A stretch of DNA of 64,000 nucleotides from an uncultured Rikenellaceae bacterium. GTDB taxonomy: Bacteria > Bacteroidota > Bacteroidia > Bacteroidales > Rikenellaceae. The stretch covers positions 1-64,000 of the forward strand of contig CALVFY010000002.1 of the NCBI GenBank assembly GCA_944326945.1. Reading direction: 5' to 3'. Numbering within the stretch: the stretch's first letter is position 1; every line of letters begins with the position of its first letter. The translations under genes were made by a program, and so were the position numbers. Positions 2,806-17,789 of the stretch are shown one piece after another. Under the pieces are notes generated by a model, which was not told where the DNA came from, ran no database searches, and saw only the letters and a program-made list of their open reading frames with translations.

Positions 2806-3840
2806 ATGACCGATTCACAAAAAAACAGATTGCTGCGTACGGTGCTCTTCTCCGGGCTGGGTATTTTCGCCTGCCTGCTGCTGGGAAACTATACCAATCT
2901 GCCTCCGGAGGCGGTGGCGCGTCTGGGGACATGGTGGGTCTACCTCTTTTTCATCGTTATCTTCAATCTGCTGGGTGAGGTGGTCGTTCGGATGAGCATT
3001 TGGCTGAACAACCAGTACTTGCTTGGCGGCCGAAGATGGTTGCGGCTCGTGATTTCTTATGCGATCGCCATATTGCTGATGTTTGGAATTAACTATGCGC
3101 TGCTGGTTTTGGTTAACTTACTCGTCGGCGCCGCATCGCCTTTCACTTTTTCCAACGAAAAGGTGCGAATTCTGATTTTGGTATGGCTGGTCGAACTGGC
3201 CGTATTGGGGTTGCTTTCGGCCAATTACTCGATGCGCGAAGCGCTCCGGTTGCAACGCCTTTCGGCAGCCCTGCAGGAAGAGACCGATATGGCCCGCTAC
3301 ACGGCGCTGCAACAGCAACTCGATCCGCATTTTCTCTTCAACAGTCTCAATACGCTGATCGCCGAAATCGAATACGATCCGACACGGGCCGTAACCTTTA
3401 CCCGTAACCTTTCGGATGTCTATCGATATGTGTTGCAAAGTCAGCACAAGCGATTTGTGACGCTTGCCGACGAGTTGCATTTCGCCGGGGCCTACCTTTT
3501 CCTGCACCGGGTCCGGTTGGGCGACTGCATTCGTTTCGAGATGCATGTCGCCGAGGAGTATATGGAAGCGCAACTGCCACCGCTGACATTGCAACTTCTG
3601 CTGGAAAACGTCGTCAAACATAACGTCGTTTCCGCAACATATCCCATGCTGATCTCGCTGTCTGTGGCCGATGGCATCCTTTCGGTCGTCAATACGCTTC
3701 ACCCCCGCCATAAAGAAAATTCGACTGGGGTTGGATTACAGAATCTCCACAACCGATGTCTTATGGCACTCGGCAGAGGAATTGAAATCCAGCGGAGCGA
3801 GACTCGGTTTATCGTTAAAATTCCGCTTTGCAATGAATAG
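2806..3840 (+). CDS. LytS/YehU-type sensor histidine kinase
   Basis: A 344-residue integral membrane kinase with four apparent transmembrane segments (about residues 11-28, 43-61, 79-108 and 120-139). A coiled linker and the His_kinase (PF06580) domain follow. The phosphoacceptor is H175 in LDPHFLFNSLNTL, and an ATP-binding N-box is visible at LLLENVVKHN. The C-terminal ATPase segment is short (VGLQNLHNRC), as in this family. It overlaps the downstream LytTR regulator by 8 bases, so the pair forms one operon and presumably one phosphorelay. No extracellular sensor domain is present, so the signal must be sensed in or near the membrane. Confidence 0.9.
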   Translation: MTDSQKNRLLRTVLFSGLGIFACLLLGNYTNLPPEAVARLGTWWVYLFFIVIFNLLGEVVVRMSIWLNNQYLLGGRRWLRLVISYAIAILLMFGINYALLVLVNLLVGAASPFTFSNEKVRILILVWLVELAVLGLLSANYSMREALRLQRLSAALQEETDMARYTALQQQLDPHFLFNSLNTLIAEIEYDPTRAVTFTRNLSDVYRYVLQSQHKRFVTLADELHFAGAYLFLHRVRLGDCIRFEMHVAEEYMEAQLPPLTLQLLLENVVKHNVVSATYPMLISLSVADGILSVVNTLHPRHKENSTGVGLQNLHNRCLMALGRGIEIQRSETRFIVKIPLCNE

Positions 3841-4600
3841 ATTCCGTGTTGCCATTATCGAAGACGAAGTGCCTGCAGCCCGTCTGCTCCGTTCCCTTGT
3901 GGCCAGCCTGCGTCCGCAATGGGAGATCGAGGTATTGCCCGGTAGCGTAGAGGAGGCCGCTGCGTGGTTTGCTGCGAACGATCATCCCGATCTGCTGTTC
4001 CTCGATATCCGCCTTTCGGACGGAACGTCGTTCGACCTGCTTTCCAAGGTGCGGTTCGCTTCCGCTGTCATCTTTACGACCGCCTACGACGAATACGCCA
4101 TTCGGGCATTTAGCGTGAACAGCATCGATTATCTGCTTAAGCCCGTGGACAAGGAGCGGCTGGCCGATGCAATTACAAAATACGAAAATCTGACTCGGAT
4201 ACAACGACCGGATGACTATTTGTCGATGTTGCTCGACGCCTTGCAGAGCCGCGAGAAAAAGTACCGCACGCGTTTCCTGATTGCGGGCGTCGATCGTTTC
4301 CACACCTTGCAGATCGATGATGTGGCCTATTTTTACTCCGAAAACAAGGTGACGACCGCGGTCTCGTGCGATGGGGTTTCGCATGTTATTGATTTTTCGT
4401 TGAGCCGCCTTGAAGAGCAACTCGATCCTGACCGTTTTTTCCGGGCAAACAGGCAGGTATTGCTCTCGGTCGGTGCCATCGACCGCATTGAGCCTTATTT
4501 CAACGGGAAGGTGTCGGTGACAGTGCGCCCGCCGCATAAGGAGAAGATTACCGTCAGTGAAGAGAAGGTATCGGCTTTCAAAGCGTGGCTGAATTACTGA
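3833..4600 (+). CDS. LytTR-family response regulator
   Basis: A 255-residue DNA-binding response regulator. The receiver domain (residues 4-120) shows the acidic pair E10/D11, phosphoacceptor D58 in LLFLDIRL, T82/T83 and the invariant lysine K103 in LLKPVD. A LytTR DNA-binding domain fills the C-terminal half, ending in FFRANRQVLLSVGAIDRIEP and the typical YFNGKVSVTV strand. The start is ATG 3833, which overlaps the kinase stop by 8 bases. A longer in-frame extension starting at 3671 lies wholly inside the kinase gene and is not supported. LytTR regulators usually bind paired direct repeats. The target genes are not obvious, although the TolC fragment and barrel gene are immediately upstream. 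Confidence 0.92.
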   Translation: MNRFRVAIIEDEVPAARLLRSLVASLRPQWEIEVLPGSVEEAAAWFAANDHPDLLFLDIRLSDGTSFDLLSKVRFASAVIFTTAYDEYAIRAFSVNSIDYLLKPVDKERLADAITKYENLTRIQRPDDYLSMLLDALQSREKKYRTRFLIAGVDRFHTLQIDDVAYFYSENKVTTAVSCDGVSHVIDFSLSRLEEQLDPDRFFRANRQVLLSVGAIDRIEPYFNGKVSVTVRPPHKEKITVSEEKVSAFKAWLNY

Positions 4601-5456: not shown

Positions 5457-5726
5457 ACCTAAAAGATTGTGTATAAGTTTTGTCTATTGATGGCTTGTAT
5501 CCCTTTTTGCAGATCATATCGTCGTCCAGACATATTAAGAAAAATCCAAAGTTATTGTCAGAAATGAGTTAAATTTCCCGACGAGATGAAAGGACTAATG
5601 TGCGGATTGTCGCTTTTTACAAGCACATATGTCGGAGCGAAAGATCATAATATCGACGTGGATTTCAGAGGTCGTACGGTCGTCTCCCGGGAGAGGGGGG
5701 AAGGCGTGTCGGGGAATCGGATTTTC

Positions 5727-5749
5727 AGGCGGTTTCGGCCGCCTTTTTT
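5727..5749 (+). terminator. Rho-independent terminator upstream of the TonB receptor locus
   Basis: AGGCGG, loop TTTCGG, CCGCCT, then a run of T. It lies about 105 bases before the TonB receptor start. It could insulate the locus from upstream reading. If the promoter lies further upstream it could instead act as a leader attenuator. Confidence 0.6.
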
Positions 5750-5826
5750 GCTGGATACCTACTTTTGTGGATAGAGCGATTCAGGAAATACCTATTTGTG
5801 AGGATTGATTCCGATGGTGTTTTCTC

Positions 5827-5849
5827 CGGAAATTTGTACCGAATTTCCG
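5827..5849. promoter_or_regulatory. Operator-like inverted repeat before the TonB receptor
   Basis: CGGAAATT and AATTTCCG form a perfect 8-bp inverted repeat separated by 7 bases. The repeat ends five bases before the ATG at 5854. Its size and symmetry suit binding by a dimeric repressor, or a hairpin that covers the start codon. No known box was identified with confidence. Confidence 0.4.
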
Positions 5850-5853
5850 AAAA

Positions 5854-8712
5854 ATGTCGTTGAGTCAGATACATATATTCAGGAGTGTTCGTTTCGTGTG
5901 TGGCATATTGCTGGTAATCAGTGTGTTGTCTGCCACGGTCGCTGTGGCCTCCCCGGCGGATCCGCTCCGGCGTATCGCGGGAAAGGTGAGGGACGCCGAG
6001 TCGGGAGAAGCGATAGGGGGTGCGTCCGTCGTGCTGGAGGGCACTTATCTCTGGGCCACGTCCGGACGCGACGGGCGGTTCGTCATCGAAGGGATTCCTG
6101 AAGGCGATTATGTGCTGGAGGTCTCTTTCTTAGGGTATGCCAAAGTCGCCCGTCCTCTCGATATCCGCAGGGATACAGACAGTCTCGATATACGGATGCG
6201 GGCGATGTCGCTGGAGATCGGCGACGTGGTGGTGACCGCCCAGGCACGTCCACAGAGCCTGAACACGACTTTGGTGATCGGGAGAAACGCCCTCGACCAC
6301 CTGCAGATGTCCAATGTCTCGGACATCGCTGCCCTGCTGCCCGGCGGCAAGACCGTCAATCCCGACCTGACCACGGCACGTGCCTTCTCCCTGCGGGGAG
6401 GAGGTTCCGATGCGGGCAATGCTCCGTTTGGTACCGTCGTGGAGGTGGACGGTGTGCGTATGGGCAACAACGCCTCTTTCGGAGCGCCGGGCGGGGTGGA
6501 TACCCGGAACATTCCCGTGTCGAACATCGAATCGGTGGAGGTGATCACCGGTGTGCCGTCGGCGGAATACGGCGACCTGAACAGCGGGATCGTCCGAATC
6601 CATACCCGGAGGGGCCATACGCCGTGGAACGTCTCCACGGCCGTGAATCCGAGGACTTACCAGTTTGCCTTCTCGAAAGGGTTCGACCTGGGAGGAAACC
6701 GTGGTGCGCTCAATATCGACGGTGAGTGGACTCGGGCCACAAAGAAACTCTCCTCGCCTTATGCCTCTTATACCCGCCGCGGATTTTCGGTGGGATACAG
6801 CAACACGTTCCGCAAGGTGCTGAAACTCCGGGCCGGCGTGTCGGGCAACGTGGGCGGAATGAATACGGAGGACGATCCGGACGCCTTTACCGGCTCCTGG
6901 ACCAGAGAACGGGACAATGTCGTGCGGGCCGACGTCGCGCTCGTGTGGCTGCTGAACCGGCCGTGGATCACCAATCTCAAGTTCGACGCCTCGCTGTTCT
7001 ATAACGACCGGCGTACCCGCGACCATGCCTACTGTTCCGAGGCTTCGGAACAACCGGCCGCCCATGCCGCTTCGGAAGGCTATTTTCTGGCGGACAAGCT
7101 GCCCTATATCTATTTTTCGGACCAGGTGGTGGATTCCCGGGAACTGGACTATACGGCCTCGCTGAAGTACGAACTCAACGGCCGTGTCGGCCCTCTGTTC
7201 AGCCGGCTCAAGGCCGGGGTGCAGTGGAAGGCCACAGGCAACGCGGGAGAGGGGGAGTATTACCTCGATCCCCGACTGGCGCCGCACGGCTATCGTCCTC
7301 GACCCTATTCCTCCTATCCCTACATGCACAACCTTTCGGCGTATGCCGAAGAGAATCTGACACTTCCTGTGGGACGGACCTCGCTGGAACTGATGGCCGG
7401 CGTACGGATGGAGAACGTGTTCGTCCGGGGATCGCATTACGACCATTTGAACACCTTTTCGCCGCGTTTCAATGTCCGGTGGAGGATGGGCCGCGGTGTG
7501 ACCGTACGTGGAGGATGGGGCGTCACCGAAAAATTGCCTTCCTACTGGGTGCTCTATCCGGCGCAGGAGTACCGGGACATTCAGACTTTCGGATTTTCCT
7601 ATGACAACAACCGTTCTTCATACGTGTATTACACCCAGCCCTATACCCTGCTGCACAACGGGAATCTGCGCTGGCAGCGCAACCACAACGCGGAGATCGG
7701 CGTGGAGGCGGAGGCCGGAAGAGTGCGGATCTCGCTGGTGGGCTATCATAACCGCACGAGGCTTCCCTATAAATATGCGAGGAGTTACACTCCGTTTTCA
7801 TACAACGTACTGCAACTGCCCGACGGGTTCTCCATGCCCTCGGATCCGGAGGTGAAGGTAGACAGCCAGACCGGGGCGGTGTACGTGCGCGGCGGACGGG
7901 AGGATTCCTGGACGGAGATGGCGCTGAAGGTGACCGACCGGACCTTCGTGGCCTCGACTTCGCCCGACAACGGGACCGACATCACCCGTCGGGGGGCGGA
8001 ACTGATCGTGGATTTTCCGGAGATTGTGCCTGTCCGCACGCAGGTGCGGGTGGACGCAGCCTTCACTCAGACGGAATACGTGGACGACCAGCTTACATAT
8101 TACTACAATACCGGGTGGTCGCACACGTCGATCGCAAACCGCTCTTATCAGTATGTGGGTATCTATGCGGGAGCGGACTCCTACAACGGGGAGCGGACCT
8201 GTCGGCTGGACGCCAACGTGACGGCGATCACTCATATCCCCGGAGCACGCCTCGTGGTCTCCTGCCGGTTGGAGATGGCGCTGCTGAGGCGTTCGCAGCG
8301 GCTGTCCGAGTACGGCGGACGTCCCTATGCCTTTACCGTGACGGAGGACAGCAACGTCCCTACGGACGGGGACATTTACGGGGGAGACTCCTACACGGCC
8401 ATCCGGCCCGTGGCCTACATGGATACGGACGGCAATATCCATCCTTTCACGCAGGCCGAGGCCGACGATCCCGCCTTCGCGCATCTGATCCGCAAATCGA
8501 GCAACGTCTATACGTTTGCCCGGGACGGGTACGATCCCTATTTCTCGGCCAACCTGAGTATTACGAAAGAGATCGGCGACCATGTGTCGCTCTCGTTTTA
8601 TGCCAATAATTTTACCAATTCGCGGCGTTACGTCACCTCGTATGCGACGGGTGTGGGTGCCATATTCACCCCCGATTTCTACTACGGGCTGACCTGCCGG
8701 CTGAAATTCTGA
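5854..8712 (+). CDS. TonB-dependent receptor with carboxypeptidase-regulatory-like N-terminal domain
   Basis: A 952-residue outer-membrane active transporter. After a signal peptide (residues 1-33) comes a CarboxypepD_reg-like domain (about 38-115, with GKVRDAESGEAIGGASVVLE and GDYVLEVSFLGY). Next are a TonB-box-like stretch (IGDVVVTAQA), a plug domain (about 125-245, with VVEVDGVRMG and SVEVITGVPSAEYGDLNSG), and a barrel of roughly 700 residues ending in RLKF. It should import a large or scarce ligand using TonB energy. It lacks the SusC-type long signature and has no SusD next to it, so a glycan is less likely than a metal chelate, cofactor or peptide. It is the first gene of the locus, and the DUF4876 gene starts 6 bases downstream. 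Confidence 0.92.
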   Translation: MSLSQIHIFRSVRFVCGILLVISVLSATVAVASPADPLRRIAGKVRDAESGEAIGGASVVLEGTYLWATSGRDGRFVIEGIPEGDYVLEVSFLGYAKVARPLDIRRDTDSLDIRMRAMSLEIGDVVVTAQARPQSLNTTLVIGRNALDHLQMSNVSDIAALLPGGKTVNPDLTTARAFSLRGGGSDAGNAPFGTVVEVDGVRMGNNASFGAPGGVDTRNIPVSNIESVEVITGVPSAEYGDLNSGIVRIHTRRGHTPWNVSTAVNPRTYQFAFSKGFDLGGNRGALNIDGEWTRATKKLSSPYASYTRRGFSVGYSNTFRKVLKLRAGVSGNVGGMNTEDDPDAFTGSWTRERDNVVRADVALVWLLNRPWITNLKFDASLFYNDRRTRDHAYCSEASEQPAAHAASEGYFLADKLPYIYFSDQVVDSRELDYTASLKYELNGRVGPLFSRLKAGVQWKATGNAGEGEYYLDPRLAPHGYRPRPYSSYPYMHNLSAYAEENLTLPVGRTSLELMAGVRMENVFVRGSHYDHLNTFSPRFNVRWRMGRGVTVRGGWGVTEKLPSYWVLYPAQEYRDIQTFGFSYDNNRSSYVYYTQPYTLLHNGNLRWQRNHNAEIGVEAEAGRVRISLVGYHNRTRLPYKYARSYTPFSYNVLQLPDGFSMPSDPEVKVDSQTGAVYVRGGREDSWTEMALKVTDRTFVASTSPDNGTDITRRGAELIVDFPEIVPVRTQVRVDAAFTQTEYVDDQLTYYYNTGWSHTSIANRSYQYVGIYAGADSYNGERTCRLDANVTAITHIPGARLVVSCRLEMALLRRSQRLSEYGGRPYAFTVTEDSNVPTDGDIYGGDSYTAIRPVAYMDTDGNIHPFTQAEADDPAFAHLIRKSSNVYTFARDGYDPYFSANLSITKEIGDHVSLSFYANNFTNSRRYVTSYATGVGAIFTPDFYYGLTCRLKF

Positions 8713-8718
8713 CCGAAG

Positions 8719-9948
8719 ATGAGACGACTGTTTTTCATACCGCTGTTTGCCGCCACACTGTGGGCGGCCGGCTGTTCCGAACCGGGGAAGGAGCTCTATT
8801 CCGGGGAGGTGCACACACTGACGGTGCGGGCCGTATATCCCGATGGCTATGCGGAGATGGTCCGCGAGGGTGTCACCGTGACGGCGGAGGACATCGACAG
8901 GGGCAATTCCTACAAGGCTTCGACCGATGACGAGGGGACTGCGCGGCTGCAGCTCACCAACGGATTGTACCGCGTCATGGTAAAGGACCGCAACGGAAAG
9001 GACATTTTCAACGGGACGGCCGACATGGTCCGTGTCGTGGACCAGGATGCGGAGATCGGTCTGCCGCTGGTCCACTCGAGGGCCGGAAGCATCGTCATCA
9101 AGGAGATCTACTGCGGGGGATGCATGAAGTACCCGCAGGAGGGCAAGTACCAGTCGGACAAGTATATCATCCTGCACAACAACGACTCCGAGGTGCAGTA
9201 TCTGGACAGCCTCTGCTTCGCCACGTTCGATCCCTATAATTCGCAGGGTACCAACGTGTGGGTGACGCAGGATCCGGAGACGGGGGCGAGCGTGTACCCC
9301 GATTTCGTGCCGGTGGTGCAGGCGATCTGGCAGTTCGGCGGGAACGGAAGGTCGTTTCCGCTGGAGCCCGGCGAGGATGCGGTGCTGGTGGTCTGCGGGG
9401 CGATCGACCATGCGGCACAGTATCCGCTGTCGGTGAATCTGAACCGGGAGGGTTATTTCGTATGCTATAACAACGTCTATTTCTGGAATACGCTCTACCA
9501 TCCTGCTCCGGGCGACCGGATTGCTCCGGATCATTATCTGGACGTGGTGATCAAGGTGGGACAGGCCAATGCCTTCACTTTCTCCGTGTTCTCGCCCGCC
9601 GTGGCGATATTCAGGGCTCAGGGTGTCACGGTGCAGGAGTTCGTGGCCGGAGCGGAGAATGTGATACAGAAACCCGGCAGTACGGTGGACCGTATCGTCA
9701 AGATTCCACTGGAATGGGTATTGGACGGCGTGGAAGTGTTCTACGGAGGATCGTCGAACAACAAGAAACGCATCCCGCCTTCGATAGATGCCGGCTATGT
9801 GACCCAGAGCGCCCTCTATACCGGGCGGACGCTCCACCGCCGTACGGACGAGGAGGCCACCCGGGAGGCCGGCTACGAGATACTCATGGATACGAACAAC
9901 TCTTCGACGGATTTTTACGAACGGGAACAACAGTCGCTGCATGATTGA
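8719..9948 (+). CDS. DUF4876-family lipoprotein
   Basis: A 409-residue predicted lipoprotein: the signal ends in the lipobox LWAAGC, so the mature protein begins at a lipidated Cys. Residues 28-110 look like a carboxypeptidase-regulatory or Ig-like fold (VRAVYPDGYAEMVREGVTVT). The core contains SIVIKEIYCGGCMKYPQEGK and YIILHNNDSEVQYLDSLCF, which match my knowledge of DUF4876, a family repeatedly found beside TonB receptors in Bacteroidota. The YCGGC pair could bind a metal, which is inference. The gene sits 6 bases after the receptor and overlaps the next gene by 8 bases. It is plausibly the surface lid or ligand-capture partner of the receptor. Confidence 0.8.
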   Translation: MRRLFFIPLFAATLWAAGCSEPGKELYSGEVHTLTVRAVYPDGYAEMVREGVTVTAEDIDRGNSYKASTDDEGTARLQLTNGLYRVMVKDRNGKDIFNGTADMVRVVDQDAEIGLPLVHSRAGSIVIKEIYCGGCMKYPQEGKYQSDKYIILHNNDSEVQYLDSLCFATFDPYNSQGTNVWVTQDPETGASVYPDFVPVVQAIWQFGGNGRSFPLEPGEDAVLVVCGAIDHAAQYPLSVNLNREGYFVCYNNVYFWNTLYHPAPGDRIAPDHYLDVVIKVGQANAFTFSVFSPAVAIFRAQGVTVQEFVAGAENVIQKPGSTVDRIVKIPLEWVLDGVEVFYGGSSNNKKRIPPSIDAGYVTQSALYTGRTLHRRTDEEATREAGYEILMDTNNSSTDFYEREQQSLHD

Positions 9949-11449
9949 ACGGAGAAAAATAGCCTTGTTGTGCGCCCTGCTGCCGTTGGCGGCGGTCCTT
10001 TCGGCGCAGCCCTACGAGCGGATCGAGCGGCGCAATTTCTGGAATGCAGGGGTGAATGCCGCGGGGCTGCGGATGGACAGTGTGACCGTGTCCTATGCCG
10101 AACTGTACGGACGGGGCATGCAGGGGGAGTTCCGCGACACCTACCAGGCCCGCGAGGCGTGGAGTGCGGGGGCCGTGGCGAAGACCATTGCTCATCGTGA
10201 GCGGTACTCCATGGCGGGGTCGTTTTCGTTCGACCATACCTCCGGACGGGAAATGTGTGGTTCGATGTTCATCCGCCCGGGCTTCTATCCGGTGGATGTG
10301 TTGGAGTTTACCCCCGGGCGCAAGGACCTTCAGACCTATTCGTTCACGGGGGGAATCGCCGTAGATGCGGCTCCCCGTTGGAGACTGGGCGGAAAGATGG
10401 AGTTCCTGGCGGCCAACTGCGCCAAGCGTAAGGACCTGCGTCACACCAACTACCGGCTGGAGATGAAGGTGGCGCCCGGCGTGATGTACCACAAGGGGCG
10501 GACGGCCCTCGGACTGGCATATGTGTTCGTAAAGAACAGCGAATCGATTCGGGCCGAGGAGGTGGGGTCGACGGTGGGCACCTACTACGCTTTTCTGGAC
10601 AAGGGGCTGATGTACGGTGCATACGAAGACTGGGAGGGCAGCGGCGTCCATCTCAAGGAGTCCGGGGTAGACGGGTTTCCCGTGAAGGAGACGATGCACG
10701 GGATTTCCGTGCAGGTGCAACAGGACGGCCTGTATGTCGATGCGGAGTATCTCCGTTCGGTGGGTTCGGCGGGGGAGAAACAGACGGTGTGGTTCGAATT
10801 TCCGGCCCATCGTGTCTCCTCGCATGTTGGTTACCGTTTCCGGCGGGGAGAGGTGTGGCATTATCTGCGTGCGGAGTTCTCGTGGAGCCGGCAGGTCAAC
10901 GACGAGAACGTGCTGGGCCGGGAGACGGCAGGCGGCGTCACCGTGACCCGCGTGTACGGGTCGAACCGGATATTCCAACGCCGCCTGCTGCGCGTGAATC
11001 CCGAATACGAGGCGGTCTTTCCGAAAGGGGAGGTCCGGTTGGGAGCAGAGGTCTCGTCGCTGCGGCGGCTGGCCACACAGATGTTCCCCTACGGGACGTT
11101 GCAGACGATGACCCTGTATCGGGGATATGTTTGCGGGGAACGCCGCGTCGGGCGGTTCGATCTGAAGGGGTACGCGGCCTTCGCCTCGAGCAGCCGGACG
11201 GAGCGGAAACTGGAGGCCGCCACGGAGACGGAACCCGGCGATCCGCCCTACCGGCTCACGGAGTATCTCGACTGGCAGGACGAATACCTGTCTGCGTCCC
11301 GAGTGTCGATAGGGGTCGGGGTGCGGTATCGCTTTCTCCAGGGGGTCTACGCAGAGTTGGGGACGGCTTTCGTCCACGGGTTCGGTCTTCGGTTCATCGG
11401 GGGGGCGAACCGCTGGGCGGAGATGCTGAAGGTGGGATATGTATTCTGA
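9941..11449 (+). CDS. DUF6850-family outer-membrane beta-barrel protein
   Basis: A 502-residue protein with a signal peptide (LLCALLPLAAVLSAQ) and many alternating aromatic strands: GSFSFDHTSGR, SMFIRPGFYPVD, YSFTGGIAVD and, at the end, AEMLKVGYVF with a C-terminal Phe. This is typical of an outer-membrane barrel. The N-terminal RRNFWNAGVNAAGLRMDSV segment matches DUF6850 as I know it. It has no plug domain, so it is not a TonB receptor itself. It overlaps the DUF4876 gene by 8 bases, which implies co-translation. Its role may be a second pore or an assembly partner in the same system. No substrate can be inferred. Confidence 0.78.
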   Translation: MIERRKIALLCALLPLAAVLSAQPYERIERRNFWNAGVNAAGLRMDSVTVSYAELYGRGMQGEFRDTYQAREAWSAGAVAKTIAHRERYSMAGSFSFDHTSGREMCGSMFIRPGFYPVDVLEFTPGRKDLQTYSFTGGIAVDAAPRWRLGGKMEFLAANCAKRKDLRHTNYRLEMKVAPGVMYHKGRTALGLAYVFVKNSESIRAEEVGSTVGTYYAFLDKGLMYGAYEDWEGSGVHLKESGVDGFPVKETMHGISVQVQQDGLYVDAEYLRSVGSAGEKQTVWFEFPAHRVSSHVGYRFRRGEVWHYLRAEFSWSRQVNDENVLGRETAGGVTVTRVYGSNRIFQRRLLRVNPEYEAVFPKGEVRLGAEVSSLRRLATQMFPYGTLQTMTLYRGYVCGERRVGRFDLKGYAAFASSSRTERKLEAATETEPGDPPYRLTEYLDWQDEYLSASRVSIGVGVRYRFLQGVYAELGTAFVHGFGLRFIGGANRWAEMLKVGYVF

Positions 11450-11500
11450 CGGATGACAAGAATAATTTCAATGTTTTATAAATCATTAACCAATCGAACG

Positions 11501-13171
11501 ATGAAAAAAAGTTTACTTTTCCTGTTGGCGGCGAGCGCGGTGATGGCCTCCTGCAACAAAGACGGAAACGAGGCGGGCGGACCCGCAGCAGACCCGGTGC
11601 TCATCAATCCCGTGTTGAATTTCTCCCGGGCTTCGGAGACGAATTTCGACGAAGGGGACCAAATCGGGCTCACGGTCCTCAAAACGGACGGAACCAAATA
11701 TGCGGAGAATCAGTTGATGACTTTCCGGGACGGCGTGTTCTCCGGAAACCTGCAATGGTATGCCGAGGCGAACGACAAGTCTACGCTGACGGCCTACTAT
11801 CCGTACGACGAGGCGGGTGCCCCGACTGAATTTTCCGTGGCGACCGACCAGACCGACCAGACGACGGGATACGGGGCTTCGGACCTGATCGCCGGAAGCA
11901 AGGCCGAGGTGCTGCCCACGGCGCAGGCCGTAGTGGTGCCGTTCAAGCACCTGTTGACCAAACTGTTGGTGAATGTGACCAACGAGTCGGGTTCGGATAT
12001 CCGTTCCATAGTCCTCGGGGGATCGATTCCCAAGGCGACCGTGGATCTGGCTGCCCTGACCGCTACGGTGGACGGCAGCGCTTCGGCTGCCGAGATCACC
12101 GCGCAGCAGGTGACGGCGAACAGACAGTACCGTGCCATCGTGGTGCCGCAGGAGGTGGCCTTTACGCTGACGGTCAGCACCACGGACGACAGGACGATGA
12201 GCCAGAACCTCGCTTCTGCGAACCTGAAGGCCGGAGGTCAGTATACGGTGGACGTGCGTGTCCTTCCGGACGACATTCAAGTGACGCTCAGCGGCGAGAT
12301 CTCCGGCTGGACGGACGAAGGGGCGATCGGCCCGTCGGAAGAGGTGGCCTTCGAGGAGCATCTGGACGAGAACTATTTCCTCTATGACGGCGAACGATAT
12401 ACCACGGTGAAACTCTCCAACGGACAGTACTGGATGGCCGAACCGATGCGTTACATTCCCCAGGGGATCACGCCTTCGACCGATCCTGTCGCCGACAGTC
12501 ACATGTGGTACCCCTACAAGCTCAACAACGCGGACGGTTCGGAGAATACGATCAACGCCGCCAGCGCTACGGCCTTGACCGATGCGGACGATATCAGGAA
12601 GAACGGTTATTTCTACGACATGTATGCCGCACTGGGCGGTGTGGAGGTCACCGAGGAGAACTGCAACGACTTCGAGGGCGTGCAGGGTATCTGTCCGAAG
12701 GGATGGCATATCCCGACCCGCACAGACCTATGGAACCTCTGCGGGCTGTCGAACAAGGCAGCATCCGGCGAAAGCGGCAACCAGATCAACGAGGATGCCC
12801 TGTTTTACGATCAGGAGTACGGCGGCGGCAATATGGCAAAGTTCAACGAGGCCGGCTGGAATTACGTGGTTTCGGGCGTGCGGATGATGACCAATTTTTC
12901 GGCCGAACCCAGGTATCAGCTGACCCAGTTCTATTCGGGCAACACCTCGAAAAGCGAACTGTTCGGTACGCCGGCGATGACCTATATCATGTCGTCGACC
13001 TGCTACACTCCGCTTTACCAGGATAAGGAAGATCCCTCGAAACTGACCAATATCCAGTTCTTCTCCATGATGACGACGTTTACCACCAAGTATCCGGAGG
13101 GAAGGATCAATGTGGCCTATATCTGTACCAAGTCCGGGCAACAGCTCCGCTGCGTGAGGGATTCGCAGTAG
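11501..13171 (+). CDS. Fimbrillin-like lipoprotein with C-terminal FISUMP domain
   Basis: A 556-residue protein. The ATG at 11501 gives a clean lipoprotein signal (MKKSLLFLLAASAVMASC); an upstream in-frame ATG at 11453 was rejected. Residues 25-290 resemble the fimbrillin / Mfa-like fold of Bacteroidales surface proteins (FDEGDQIGLTV, the FKHLLTKLLVNVTN strand, KAGGQYTVDV). Residues 300-556 resemble the FISUMP domain (YTTVKLSNGQYWMAEPMRY, GICPKGWHIPTRTDLWNLCG). It is thus a two-domain surface lipoprotein rather than a pilus subunit. It lies 51 bases after the DUF6850 gene and is followed by a perfect 28-bp palindrome. It may capture ligand or form an accessory surface structure. Confidence 0.82.
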   Translation: MKKSLLFLLAASAVMASCNKDGNEAGGPAADPVLINPVLNFSRASETNFDEGDQIGLTVLKTDGTKYAENQLMTFRDGVFSGNLQWYAEANDKSTLTAYYPYDEAGAPTEFSVATDQTDQTTGYGASDLIAGSKAEVLPTAQAVVVPFKHLLTKLLVNVTNESGSDIRSIVLGGSIPKATVDLAALTATVDGSASAAEITAQQVTANRQYRAIVVPQEVAFTLTVSTTDDRTMSQNLASANLKAGGQYTVDVRVLPDDIQVTLSGEISGWTDEGAIGPSEEVAFEEHLDENYFLYDGERYTTVKLSNGQYWMAEPMRYIPQGITPSTDPVADSHMWYPYKLNNADGSENTINAASATALTDADDIRKNGYFYDMYAALGGVEVTEENCNDFEGVQGICPKGWHIPTRTDLWNLCGLSNKAASGESGNQINEDALFYDQEYGGGNMAKFNEAGWNYVVSGVRMMTNFSAEPRYQLTQFYSGNTSKSELFGTPAMTYIMSSTCYTPLYQDKEDPSKLTNIQFFSMMTTFTTKYPEGRINVAYICTKSGQQLRCVRDSQ

Positions 13172-13198
13172 GGAAAGATTCTGCAAACGGGACGGAAC

Positions 13199-13226
13199 CG
13201 TATGGCCGGATGCATCCGGCCATACG
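13199..13226. terminator. Perfect 28-bp palindrome between the fimbrillin-like and ABC genes
   Basis: Two 14-base halves (CGTATGGCCGGATG and its exact complement) meet with no spacer. As RNA this folds into a very stable stem with a tight loop. No T-run follows, so it may be an mRNA-stability or attenuation element that separates expression of the surface proteins from the inner-membrane ABC part. A DNA-binding site is the alternative. Confidence 0.5.
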
Positions 13227-13295
13227 ACCGTTCGGAAACACAGGAAAGGGACATCTCATGGAGAGACCGTCTCTTCCGTACATGAACAAGACACT

Positions 13296-14171
13296 ATGAA
13301 TCCAGTTATCCAATGTGACAACATAACGCACAGCTACGGGAAAAAACTGATCTACGAGAACCTCTGCTTTTCTGTGGAGGAAGGGAGCGTCGTGGGGCTG
13401 CTGGGACGGAACGGGACCGGGAAAACCACGATCATCAATATCCTGAACGGCTATCTCAGGCCCCGCAGCGGGGTATGCCGTCTGTTCGGGGAGCCGATGG
13501 ACCGTCTCTCTCCTGCCACGAAAGCCCGTGTGGGGCTGCTGCTGGAGGGGCATATCCAGCACACTTATTTCAATGTGAGGCAGATCGAGCGGTTCTACGG
13601 GCGGTTCTTTCCGAAATGGAAGAGGGATGCCTACTACGAGCTGCTGGAGAAACTCCAGGTGACACCGACGCAACGGATCAGCACCATGTCCTGCGGGCAG
13701 CGGTCGCAGGTGGCCCTCGGGCTTCTGTTTGCGCAGGACCCCGATCTTCTGATCCTCGACGACTTCTCCATGGGACTCGACCCGGGTTACCGGAGGCTTT
13801 TCGTGGAGTACCTGCGCGAATATGCGCGGGCGGGAAAGAAGACCGTGTTCCTCACCTCGCACATCATACAGGATATGGAGATGCTGATCGACGACTGTAT
13901 CGTCATGGATTACGGGCGTATCCTGCTCCATCGGCCCACGAAGGAGATCTTGGAGGGTTTCCGTCGTTACCGTTTCACGGCGCCGGGTCCGGTGCCGGAG
14001 AAATTGGAGGGTCTGTGGAACACCTCTGCGATCGGAAACCGATGGGAGACCTATTCCTTTCTGGACGGGGAGCACGTGGCCGGGTTGCTGGCGCCTTTCG
14101 GTGCGGAGAACCTGAGGGCGGAGAGGCTCTCCCTGGAGGATGCCTTCATCGGGTTGACCGGAAAATACTGA
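13296..14171 (+). CDS. ABC transporter ATP-binding protein
   Basis: A 291-residue nucleotide-binding subunit. Walker A is at residues 37-45 (GRNGTGKTT), the signature motif at 131-135 reads MSCGQ instead of LSGGQ, Walker B is at 151-155 (LLILD) and the switch histidine is H189 (TSH). The residue after Walker B, normally the catalytic glutamate, is Asp156. Both changes could lower ATPase rate; similar changes occur in other exporter-type ATPases. The permease gene follows after 13 bases. The arrangement ATPase, small permease and membrane protein resembles NosFY- or CcmAB-like exporters more than importers with binding proteins. It is the first gene after the palindrome and probably still belongs to the same transcript. 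Confidence 0.9.
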   Translation: MNPVIQCDNITHSYGKKLIYENLCFSVEEGSVVGLLGRNGTGKTTIINILNGYLRPRSGVCRLFGEPMDRLSPATKARVGLLLEGHIQHTYFNVRQIERFYGRFFPKWKRDAYYELLEKLQVTPTQRISTMSCGQRSQVALGLLFAQDPDLLILDDFSMGLDPGYRRLFVEYLREYARAGKKTVFLTSHIIQDMEMLIDDCIVMDYGRILLHRPTKEILEGFRRYRFTAPGPVPEKLEGLWNTSAIGNRWETYSFLDGEHVAGLLAPFGAENLRAERLSLEDAFIGLTGKY

Positions 14172-14184
14172 AACTTTCTGCAAC

Positions 14185-14856
14185 ATGGTAAAAGCTATAT
14201 TATACAAGGAATGGATCAAGACCCGGCGCAGCGTGTGGCTGGCGGCGGCGGTCATGGCCGGCTGCACGGCCTATGCTTTCGTGGAGTCGGGGCAAGAGTT
14301 CCGCCTCTCGGGGGCCGTGCAGGTGTGGTACGGTGCGATTGTGAAGGATGCGCCGCTCCTGCCGGCCGTCATGCAGTGGGTCCCTGCGTTCGTCGGGGTG
14401 CTGCTTTCTCTCTCTCAGTTCGTGCCGGAGATGACGGACAGGCGTCTGAAACTCACCCTGCACCTGCCGGCCGGGGAGGATGCCCTGTTGGCCTCGCTGC
14501 TGGCCTATGGTGCGGTGGTGCTGGTCTTGCTATATGCACTGACCTGCGCCGTGCTGGCGGTCGGGTTCTCCGCAATCTATCCCCCGGAGATCGTGGGGAA
14601 CATGGTTCTGGACTCCCTGCCGTGGTTTTTGGCCGGAATATGTGCCTATCTGCTGACGGCCTGGATCTGCATGGAACCCGTGTGGCGCTTCCGCATCGCC
14701 TACGGACTGGTCGGAGCGTGTCTGTGCGCCTTCTTTTTTGTGGATGGTCCTGCCGGGGCCTGTCTGCCAGCGATACCTTATCTGACACTGTTTACCCTGC
14801 TGTGTTTCTTCTTCCCGTTCCATTCGGCGGGACGTTTCAAGGAGGGAGCCCGGTAA
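14185..14856 (+). CDS. ABC transporter permease-like membrane protein
   Basis: A 223-residue hydrophobic protein with about six transmembrane helices. It starts with the cytoplasmic MVKAILYKEWIKTRRS typical of ABC-2-type permeases. It sits directly between the ATPase and the DUF4857-like gene, so it is most likely the membrane half of that transporter. A full ABC-2 permease is usually 230-260 residues, so this is slightly short but intact. No substrate-binding protein is encoded nearby, which favours export or a mechanical role over import. Assignment rests on topology and context rather than a strong motif. Confidence 0.72.
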   Translation: MVKAILYKEWIKTRRSVWLAAAVMAGCTAYAFVESGQEFRLSGAVQVWYGAIVKDAPLLPAVMQWVPAFVGVLLSLSQFVPEMTDRRLKLTLHLPAGEDALLASLLAYGAVVLVLLYALTCAVLAVGFSAIYPPEIVGNMVLDSLPWFLAGICAYLLTAWICMEPVWRFRIAYGLVGACLCAFFFVDGPAGACLPAIPYLTLFTLLCFFFPFHSAGRFKEGAR

Positions 14857-14872
14857 CGATACGAGACGAATT

Positions 14873-16108
14873 ATGAAACATCAAAATATCCTTTATGCGG
14901 TGATCCTCGTGTGCACTACGGTTGTGTGCATGTGGGTGCTGCCCGCACTGGTGAAGATGGCGACGCGCGAGCCGCAGGAGTATCCGTTCGTGTATTACGG
15001 TTCGGTGCTGAAGGGGTTCGGGCTGGTCGACTACAAGAACAAGGAGATGCCGTTGACCGACCTGGCTGGAAATCGGTACACGGCCGAACAGTTCGATTCG
15101 CTGATGCCGTTGCTCAATTACCGGCAACTCATGTCCGACGGAAGGTTGCCGGACAGCATCGGGGGGCGTGAGGTGACTCCTCCGTTGCTCCGGATGTCCA
15201 CCGTGATTTTCCGCTACAAGCCCGAAGAGGTGTCGGCCCCGGAGTCCGGGCTGTATATCCTGCAGGAGTCCATGCCCCGTCGGGGTGGCCTCTCTATTCC
15301 GCCGGACGTGTTCCGGTTGCGTGGGGGAATCGAGTTTGTCGATGCCGCGACCAATCGGGTGGACGAGAAGAAAAGTGCCCGTTTCCGGAAGGCGATGGAA
15401 AAAGCCGGTTTCGCCTTTCCGGCCCGGTGGGCGGCGGGGAATCCCACGACTCTCAAATCGTATGATGAGGGATACTTCTGCCTTGATGCACGGGGGCGGT
15501 TGTTCCATCTCAAGATGGTGAACGGGCGGCCCTATGTGCGCGATACGCATGCAGGGGATTCGATCGACATCCGTTCTTTCTCCATGTACGAGGCGCCCGA
15601 CCGCCGGTTCTACGGTTTTATGTTCGACCGGAAAGGCTCCCTGTACATTCTGGAGAGCGATCTGGCGGGAGGCTACGAACCGAGGAAGCTGGGTATGGGA
15701 CCGGTGGACCCGGAGACGGACCGGGTCACGGTCATGGGAAACCTGCTGTACTGGACCGTGACGGTGGAGACGCCCGGAGGCCGCCGCTATTATGCGCTGG
15801 ATACGCCGACGCTGGGGCCGGTAGCTGAGTATCATATAGATGCGGAACCCGACCGGTGGGAGAGGGTGTCGCGCCGACTCTTCCCGGTTTACCTGACCAT
15901 GGGACGCGAAAACTCCTCTTATGTGGCTCCGCATCTGACTTTTACCGGTGTTGCGGCGCTGGCGGCCAATGTCGTTGTGGCGCTTCTCGCGTTGCTTGCC
16001 ACGGGCGGCGGGCGGAAAAGAAAGGTATGGACGGTATGCTATCTCCTGCTGACCGGGATCGCCGGGCTGGCGGCGATGGCACTGTTGCCCCGCTTGCGCC
16101 GGGAATAA
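14873..16108 (+). CDS. DUF4857-like membrane protein associated with the ABC transporter
   Basis: A 411-residue protein with one N-terminal transmembrane helix (ILYAVILVCTTVVCMWVLPAL), a large hydrophilic domain (about residues 35-345) and two closing helices (around 358-376 and 386-402). This topology puts the big domain outside the cytoplasm. The domain contains beta-propeller-like stretches (GYFCLDARGRLFHLKMVNG and FDRKGSLYILES). I recall the family DUF4857 as partner of such ABC genes in Bacteroidota, but the match is from memory. It begins 16 bases after the permease. It is probably a periplasmic sensor or coupling subunit for the ABC unit. Confidence 0.65.
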   Translation: MKHQNILYAVILVCTTVVCMWVLPALVKMATREPQEYPFVYYGSVLKGFGLVDYKNKEMPLTDLAGNRYTAEQFDSLMPLLNYRQLMSDGRLPDSIGGREVTPPLLRMSTVIFRYKPEEVSAPESGLYILQESMPRRGGLSIPPDVFRLRGGIEFVDAATNRVDEKKSARFRKAMEKAGFAFPARWAAGNPTTLKSYDEGYFCLDARGRLFHLKMVNGRPYVRDTHAGDSIDIRSFSMYEAPDRRFYGFMFDRKGSLYILESDLAGGYEPRKLGMGPVDPETDRVTVMGNLLYWTVTVETPGGRRYYALDTPTLGPVAEYHIDAEPDRWERVSRRLFPVYLTMGRENSSYVAPHLTFTGVAALAANVVVALLALLATGGGRKRKVWTVCYLLLTGIAGLAAMALLPRLRRE

Positions 16109-16146
16109 ATAGAAATGAAGAACGTATATCTTAACACAAAAACGCT

Positions 16147-16701
16147 ATGAAAAGATTATTTATGATCGCCGCCCTGTGCGGCCTGATGGCAGCCTGCGGC
16201 GGAAACGACAACCGGAAGAGTGGCGGAGAGGGTTCGGAGACGGCCCGCAGCGCCGCAGCCGTCGCGGAGACGGAGACTTACGGGTTGGATGATCTGCTGG
16301 CCGAGGCGGATAAGCTGATCGGCAAGAAAGTGACCGTGCGCGGTTATGTGACGCATACGTGCACGCATTCGGGCAAACGCTGTTTTATCGTGGGCGAGAG
16401 TCAGAAAACCTCCATGCGTGTGGAGGCGAAGGGCAACATCGGCGGATTCAACCGTGAACTGATCGGCTCGCAGCTGGCCATCACGGGCACGATGCACGAA
16501 AACCGTCTCAGCCAGGAGTATCTGGCCCAGATGGAGAAGGAGATCAACGAGAAGAACGTGAAGGAACCCGAGTCGGGCGAGGCGTGTGCCGCGGAGCTGG
16601 CCAATATCGAGGAGATGAGGGCGTGGATGAAGGAGAACGGCAAGGATTACTACGCTCTGTATTACATGGACGGAGAGGATTATGAAGTCGTGGAGGAATA
16701 G
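16147..16701 (+). CDS. Small OB-fold-like lipoprotein with a Cys-His motif
   Basis: A 184-residue predicted lipoprotein (lipobox GLMAAC, mature Cys at about 18). The mature part holds an OB-fold-like segment (LIGKKVTVRGYVTHTCTHSG ... VGESQKTSMRVEAKG ... GSQLAITGTM). Within it CTHSGKRC (residues 77-84) gives two cysteines and a histidine in eight residues. That spacing could ligate a soft metal or a heme, which is inference. The C-terminal third is acidic and helical. It overlaps the PepSY-type gene by 20 bases, a strong sign of translational coupling, so it is a likely periplasmic partner of that membrane protein. Confidence 0.65.
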   Translation: MKRLFMIAALCGLMAACGGNDNRKSGGEGSETARSAAAVAETETYGLDDLLAEADKLIGKKVTVRGYVTHTCTHSGKRCFIVGESQKTSMRVEAKGNIGGFNRELIGSQLAITGTMHENRLSQEYLAQMEKEINEKNVKEPESGEACAAELANIEEMRAWMKENGKDYYALYYMDGEDYEVVEE

Positions 16702-17230
16702 TGTCGTCCGCTGGTTGAGGATCGTCCACCGCGACCTGGGCTACCTGATGGTGGGAATCTGTCTGGTGTACGGCATTTCGGGCATCCTGTTGAACCACAT
16801 GAACGGGAAGGACCCTGCCTACCGGAGCAGTTATTACACGCTGGATTTTCCTGCGGGACTGGACCGTGACGGGGTGAGCGCGGCATGGAACGGAAAGTCG
16901 GGTCTTCCCCGGCTCAAAAAAGCCTTGCCCCTCGACGACCAGCATACGAGGCTCATGCTGGAAGGCGGCATGGGAGTGTACAACAGCGCGACCGGTACGC
17001 TGGACTACGAACTTCACGAGAAACGGGCTCTGGTGTATTGGATCAACAAACTGCACTATAATCGGGTGGACGGATGGAGCATCATGGCCGACCTGTTCGC
17101 CGTGTCACTGATCTTTTTCGCCCTCTCCGGACTGTTCATGATCCCGGGGCGGAAGGGGCTGCCCGGCCGTGGAAAATGGTTCCTGCTGGCGGGCGTGCTG
17201 ATTCCCGTGTGTTATGTGATTTTTACCTGA
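16682..17230 (+). CDS. PepSY-associated transmembrane protein with conserved histidines
   Basis: A 182-residue inner-membrane protein. It has a first helix around residues 22-38, a periplasmic domain of about 75 residues, and further helices near 134-152 and 164-181. Histidines in family-typical places are H16 (IVHRDLG), H39 (LLNHM) and H125 (KLHYN). In PepSY_TM proteins such histidines can bind heme, and relatives such as XusC of Bacteroides thetaiotaomicron act with a TonB receptor and a lipoprotein in xenosiderophore use. This copy is short, having one half of the usual four-helix PepSY_TM. It is the last gene of the locus. Metal-chelate reduction is a reasonable but unproven role. Confidence 0.75.
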   Translation: MKSWRNSVVRWLRIVHRDLGYLMVGICLVYGISGILLNHMNGKDPAYRSSYYTLDFPAGLDRDGVSAAWNGKSGLPRLKKALPLDDQHTRLMLEGGMGVYNSATGTLDYELHEKRALVYWINKLHYNRVDGWSIMADLFAVSLIFFALSGLFMIPGRKGLPGRGKWFLLAGVLIPVCYVIFT

Positions 17231-17357
17231 CGGGAATGGTATAGTTCAGTCAATTTATTTGGGCTGACTATCTTCATGTTGAGGTAGAGCCTGAATATTT
17301 TTCCGATATTGAATACACAGTAAGAAAAAATAATTAATTTTAGCAAAATTTATAGCC

Positions 17358-17789
17358 ATGAATAAGATTGTATTGTCATGTTTGGCCGTAAGCGCAGTGC
17401 TTTTTATCTCAGCCGTAAGCGCCGACAATAAAAAAGGAGAGACTGTAAATTTGCCGGAGTGTTGCTGTGGGGATTGTGACTGTCGCGACTGCCGGTGCGA
17501 TGTGGGTTGCTTCGAGTGTAGGGGATGCCGCAATATGTACGACTGTCACCAGGATTGTCGTGTGAATGACAGCATTACATTCTACAGACACGGTTACTGC
17601 TGCGATTACCATTATCGTGCCGATAAACGGCGGTATTACCGCAACCATCGCAGCCATCATTACGCCCGTCACTATTATGGGCGTTGTTGCGACGTATATC
17701 CCAGCGATTACAAGGATCGCGGGCGATATATTCAAGACGATACGTCACCATATCGTTACGGCCGTCGGGGCGGATGCTGCGGACGATGA
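17358..17789 (+). CDS. Secreted cysteine- and histidine-rich protein
   Basis: A 143-residue protein with a signal peptide (VLSCLAVSAVLFISAVSA). Its mature part has 18 cysteines, twelve of them packed between about residues 35 and 73 in short C-x-C and C-x-x-C steps (ECCCGDCDCRDCRCDVGC). A Tyr/His/Arg-rich segment follows (HYRADKRRYYRNHRSHHYAR), then more CC pairs up to the C-terminal GGCCGR. I know no family match. Cysteine density at this level suggests metal binding (metallothionein-like) or heavy disulfide bonding in the periplasm or outside. It starts 127 bases after the PepSY-type gene and is followed by a strong hairpin. Low complexity also leaves room for a structural envelope role. 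Confidence 0.7.
   Translation: MNKIVLSCLAVSAVLFISAVSADNKKGETVNLPECCCGDCDCRDCRCDVGCFECRGCRNMYDCHQDCRVNDSITFYRHGYCCDYHYRADKRRYYRNHRSHHYARHYYGRCCDVYPSDYKDRGRYIQDDTSPYRYGRRGGCCGR

Follow-up and report, generated by a model that had tools for sequence, protein, structure and literature searches.

A nine-gene operon of an uncultured Rikenellaceae bacterium is a real and widespread iron-regulon system, probably a variant of TonB-dependent iron acquisition. Sequence comparison identifies the nine genes as a conserved system. Membership of the iron regulon is well supported, induction by iron depletion itself being taken by analogy from the homologous operon of Bacteroides thetaiotaomicron. Our preferred reading, held with slightly better than even confidence, is that the operon encodes iron-starvation-induced, TonB-dependent uptake of a ferric chelate, with reduction in the periplasm and an ABC-2 unit that carries a propeller-like periplasmic domain.

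The window analysed is a stretch of 64 kb, to which all plain coordinates refer. Ten ORFs, those of the nine-gene operon and a following Cys-rich gene, were confirmed at the positions and in the order given by an earlier sequence-only reading. Pfam agrees with the families which that reading had named, except that the permease is matched weakly and the Cys-His lipoprotein has no Pfam match above the curated cut-off. The nine genes are as follows.

5854-8712, + strand: TonB-dependent outer-membrane receptor with a CarboxypepD-like N-terminal domain (Pfam plug and barrel, 5e-13 and 4e-14)
8719-9948, + strand: DUF4876 lipoprotein (Pfam 1e-41; solved relative 4q1z, E 3e-24)
9941-11449, + strand: DUF6850 protein, a predicted outer-membrane barrel (Pfam 2e-28)
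11453-13171, + strand: fimbrillin-like and FISUMP lipoprotein, a variable accessory gene (Pfam Mfa_like_1 and Fib_succ_major, 8e-37 and 1e-11)
13296-14171, + strand: ABC ATPase of exporter/ABC-2 type (Pfam ABC_tran 5e-20; NCBIfam and PDB neighbours)
14185-14856, + strand: ABC-2 type permease (weak ABC2_membrane_4 match, Pfam 1e-4, under the curated cut-off)
14873-16108, + strand: DUF4857 protein, with one helix, a propeller-like periplasmic domain and two helices (Pfam 5e-100; model pLDDT 93.6)
16147-16701, + strand: OB-fold lipoprotein with an HxCxH motif and a distal Cys, a distant DUF4920 relative (alignment, model and the DUF4920 match of a relative)
16682-17230, + strand: PepSY-type membrane protein with three invariant His (Pfam PepSY_TM_like_2 8e-12; alignment)

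The fimbrillin-FISUMP gene likely starts at 11498 instead of 11453. Packing with overlaps of 8 to 20 bases had been described, but only two junctions overlap, by 8 bases (9941-9948) and by 20 bases (16682-16701); at all other junctions the genes are separated by 3 to about 125 bases. An inverted repeat at 5827-5849, directly before the start codon of the receptor gene, is perfect in the window and imperfect in a congener.

The locus is GC-rich, as had been noted, with about 0.59 across 6-17 kb against about 0.51 outside. Positions 5700-17335 match a single place in the congeneric genome over 11,638 bases with 96.7% identity. The DNA flanking the operon is 77-82% identical to the same genome, and this match lies about 390 kb away. 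On these alignments, the nine genes and about 150 bases upstream behave as a single transferred unit, which would explain the GC contrast. We saw no transposase gene at either edge of the unit, and a tRNA was the sole result of an Rfam search. Upstream of the operon and outside the transferred unit, a histidine kinase and a LytTR response regulator are encoded as a pair (2806-4600). At 15-2332, a sulfotransferase-family gene overlaps a gene for an Omp85-superfamily barrel.

The Cys-rich gene (17358-17789) encodes a secreted protein rich in His and Tyr, with 19 cysteines, 18 of them after the first. It had been read as part of the locus. We rejected it as an operon member: it lies outside the 11.6 kb, about 97%-identical unit and was found at none of 130 other loci. 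Among 61 genomes of the family its relatives are weak partial matches at other places. One partial copy is located elsewhere in the same genome (C50), and weak relatives occur in two other family genomes.

DUF4857 is found in 12 of 61 genomes in the family, in 30 of 247 in the order and in 15 of 395 in a phylum sample. Within the order, DUF4876 is present in 29 of the 30 DUF4857 genomes (Fisher p = 4e-27, with no correction for relatedness) and DUF6850 in 28; DUF6850 and DUF4876 co-occur in 39 of 41 genomes. Across Bacteroidota, receptor, DUF4876, ATPase and DUF4857 stand together in 84 of 95 long loci (at least 18 kb). The OB-fold lipoprotein is found in 73 and the PepSY gene in 55 of these loci, which were gathered by DUF4857, so that the counts measure linkage to DUF4857. 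Co-occurrence of the families across Bacteroidota, whose absence the sequence-only reading had named as evidence against its grouping, is thus strong.

Two blocks can be distinguished. An outer-membrane module consists of the receptor, DUF4876 and DUF6850. An inner-membrane and periplasmic module consists of the HxCxH lipoprotein, the PepSY protein, the ABC ATPase, the permease and DUF4857. These blocks shift as modules between loci, where they are co-directional, divergent or swapped. In the distant loci L051-L053, which also show two or three receptors and cytochrome c, permease and DUF4857 are a single polypeptide. This fusion is real and makes it likely that both act together. An apparent sequence homology between permease and DUF4857 proved to be an artefact of a profile contaminated by the fused proteins. 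In L051 and L052, the PepSY gene is flanked by CbiX-type proteins, of which one is probably a lipoprotein; this may point to a tetrapyrrole link. L098 and L107 carry tandem DUF4857 copies and an ABC ATPase with no receptor near, so that the ABC half may serve some other purpose there.

The fimbrillin-FISUMP gene occupies a variable slot, present in 13 of the 95 long loci. Near the same modules elsewhere we found other surface protein families, namely YCF48-type propellers with a secretion tail and DUF6383-tailed or DUF4932 proteins. The presence of a fimbrillin-like gene, together with the label given to BT3625-BT3633 of B. thetaiotaomicron in PMC10434189, could point to a fimbrillin synthesis or transport locus that assembles a fimbria-like surface protein. 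The variability of the slot disfavours such an assembly role, which we consider very improbable.

By published annotation, BT3625-BT3633 is the homologous operon, with TonB receptor, DUF4876, fimbrillin, PepSY, ABC ATPase and DUF4857. B. faecis and other Bacteroides served as sequence stand-ins for B. thetaiotaomicron, and the same gene set is linked in these close relatives (L142 and L159). B. faecis (L159) is one of the relatives in which the lipoprotein/PepSY pair stands before the ABC genes; here the pair follows DUF4857. BT3625-BT3633 is induced 37-128-fold when iron is depleted and 14-19-fold in colitis (PMC10434189). The most strongly iron-induced operons of B. thetaiotaomicron also include hmu, flavodoxin-DUF2023 and a TetR operon. 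In P. gingivalis, PG1019-PG1022 likewise encodes DUF4876 and a TonB receptor and rises 21-215-fold in iron depletion. It is reported without the ABC/DUF4857 half, an arrangement to be compared with the 12 of 247 order genomes that have DUF4876 without DUF4857. The locus had been called undescribed. No function has been published for it, but expression of the B. thetaiotaomicron homologue under iron depletion and in colitis has (PMC10434189). Iron depletion also induces iron-sparing genes, not importers alone, which counts against reading the operon as an uptake system.

A promoter element common to the operon and to known iron-starvation genes was looked for and found. An independent de novo search upstream of 76 non-redundant receptors gave a 20-bp palindrome, AATmCCyAnnnnTrGGkATT, in about 68% of them, with a log-likelihood of 363 against 65-75 in shuffled controls. 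The corresponding sites are listed below.

5787-5806, + strand: predicted iron operator AATACCTATTTGTGAGGATT, with the palindromic consensus above, 22.7 bits
5754-5773, + strand: second, weaker operator-like site, 11.9 bits, a score that shuffled sequence sometimes reaches
L214:3412-3431 and L214:4452-4471, same genome: operator-like sites, one ahead of fldA and one ahead of a hemerythrin-like gene

The site at 5787-5806 is the top site in the 64 kb window and still scores 20.2 bits with its own family omitted from training. Training on a set that left out the window and its close relatives, with no symmetry imposed, recovered the same motif, and 5787-5806 remained the best site in the 64 kb. 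In the whole genome (2.55 Mb), three sites have at most one mismatch, against zero for a reversed control pattern. One precedes the nine-gene operon, the second lies 55 bp before a Calycin_like-HmuY-receptor operon, and the third precedes the hemerythrin-like gene directly after fldA-DUF2023. A further, weaker site lies about 50 bp before fldA. Across 247 genomes we counted 395 palindrome sites against 136 control sites (counts transcribed by hand). In other genomes, perfect sites stand before genes for flavodoxin, hemerythrin-like proteins and TetR, as well as before some genes of less clear role. L234 and L246 also have a perfect site ahead of the hemerythrin-like gene, which suggests that this gene is an iron-regulon member. 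P. gingivalis Fur binds the hmu promoter and does not bind the E. coli Fur box. The literature searched, limited to open-licence text, contained no earlier description of the palindrome. In five loci (L043, L044, L046, L048 and L049) the receptor is preceded by genes for an ECF sigma factor and FecR, and a good palindrome is lacking, which suggests another control mode. The ECF sigma/FecR pair adjoining the receptor counts in favour of uptake.

Published induction of the homologue and the shared operator support the earlier proposal of metal, heme or siderophore handling and narrow it to the iron regulon. The substrate and the chelate, the reduction step and the direction and role of the ABC unit are inferred. 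Heme is the main alternative substrate. In a system for heme or another tetrapyrrole, the receptor would import heme or another metal-tetrapyrrole, and periplasmic parts would remove the metal or pass it on, as a system parallel to Hmu. The operon, judged by its homologue, and HmuYRSTUV are both iron-starvation induced, both have a TonB receptor and a lipoprotein, and the predicted operator is common to this operon and the hmuY operon of the same genome. The P. gingivalis DUF4876 and receptor genes go down with hemin excess, and CbiX-type lipoproteins stand beside the PepSY gene in L051-L053. However, iron control alone can explain a shared operator, CbiX is confined to the most distant loci, and the operon has no HmuY or HmuS-type protein. 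For lack of these proteins the operon is not Hmu; HmuY is encoded in a separate operon of the same genome. We consider a heme system unlikely.

For uptake of a ferric chelate, the Xus system offers a precedent with its receptor, lipoprotein and PepSY reductase. The xenosiderophore system XusABC (BT2063-BT2065) is iron-controlled and comprises a TonB receptor, a surface lipoprotein and a PepSY inner-membrane protein. The analogy drawn earlier holds in that a TonB receptor and a PepSY membrane protein are encoded together here too. It does not extend to membership: no operon protein matches DUF4374, the family of the lipoprotein XusB, and the operon adds DUF6850, the OB-fold lipoprotein, ABC ATPase, permease and DUF4857. 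In the proposed mechanism, the ferric chelate would cross the outer membrane by way of the TonB receptor and a surface lipoprotein, together with DUF4876 and DUF6850. The PepSY protein would act as a heme-bearing membrane reductase that reduces or loosens the iron in the periplasm. This small protein has invariant H16, H39 and H125 in the alignment, and PepSY proteins such as FoxB bear hemes on conserved histidines. The HxCxH lipoprotein, modeled as an OB fold (mean pLDDT 85.7), may then accept or chaperone the iron. H70, C72 and C147 are invariant and H74 is nearly so. The invariant His of the PepSY protein and the HxCxH and Cys of the lipoprotein count for uptake with reduction. A Fer4_5 polyferredoxin is found in six loci that lack the PepSY/lipoprotein pair; its frequent presence in such loci is compatible with a redox or electron-delivery step.

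The ABC ATPase, the permease and DUF4857 would form a single ATP-driven unit, with the propeller-like domain working in the periplasm. The DUF4857 model (pLDDT 93.6) shows one helix, a beta domain and two helices. The best structural matches of the model are propellers, but they score low (best Z 7.5, with 4.2 A over 165 residues), and we describe the domain only tentatively as propeller-like. For DUF4857 and the PepSY protein, sequence searches against solved structures yielded no useful match. NosDFY likewise pairs its ABC-2 ATPase and permease with NosD, a large periplasmic protein that is a beta-helix. This layout, the presence of NosF among the solved relatives of the ATPase and the His/Cys site of the lipoprotein would suit a metal other than iron, such as copper or zinc, with the ABC/DUF4857 unit acting like NosDFY in periplasmic metal delivery. 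DUF4857 differs in being membrane-anchored and propeller-like, and nos genes are absent here. NosD does not appear among the matches listed for the DUF4857 model, and the domain may nevertheless be of NosD type. Iron-depletion induction of the homologue and an operator common to heme uptake and the flavodoxin neighbourhood argue against another metal, and we regard this role as highly unlikely.

ABC-2 units are usually exporters, which counts against uptake, and chelator efflux is the main alternative role for the ABC unit. In P. aeruginosa, PA4063-PA4066 is a Zur-regulated MacB-type exporter for which a role in chelator export was proposed. Like the present operon, this metal-starvation operon has an ABC unit of the exporter type and encodes an OB-like protein of the periplasm, and that protein (PA4066, 4hsp) is among the matches of our OB-fold lipoprotein. 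By the same token, the ABC unit, whose ATPase resembles those of exporters, could be a true exporter expelling an iron-free foreign chelator or another compound that the uptake half makes available, and DUF6850 might be the outer-membrane exit, which is pure conjecture. PA4063-PA4066 differs in its MacB-type permease, its zinc control and the lack of a TonB receptor. The permease here is ABC-2, with no MacB family match in Pfam, and the loci have no adaptor protein or TolC-like channel. We hold true export to be rather unlikely. In the uptake mechanism that we prefer, the unit would not be a classical importer; it may force ligand release and hand-over, or remove the emptied chelator.

Gene content, conserved linkage, an operator common to hmu and the fldA neighbourhood, the permease-DUF4857 fusion and the fold classes of two proteins are shown here. 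A bolder proposal, which we consider doubtful as a whole, is that ABC/DUF4857 is an ATP-driven periplasmic machine of a new class, which mechanically frees or hands over chelate iron without transporting it, and that the whole system is under a previously undefined 20-bp palindromic Bacteroidales iron operator that also governs hmu and fldA-region genes. Expression in B. thetaiotaomicron was already published; the architecture, the mobility and the predicted operator are new. In a 2026 paper on Xus, the iron transporter of the inner membrane is still listed as unknown. The present operon, widespread and induced by iron depletion and in colitis in B. thetaiotaomicron, supplies candidate parts for this missing inner-membrane step, and with the predicted operator, iron regulation in Bacteroidota can be approached from sequence.
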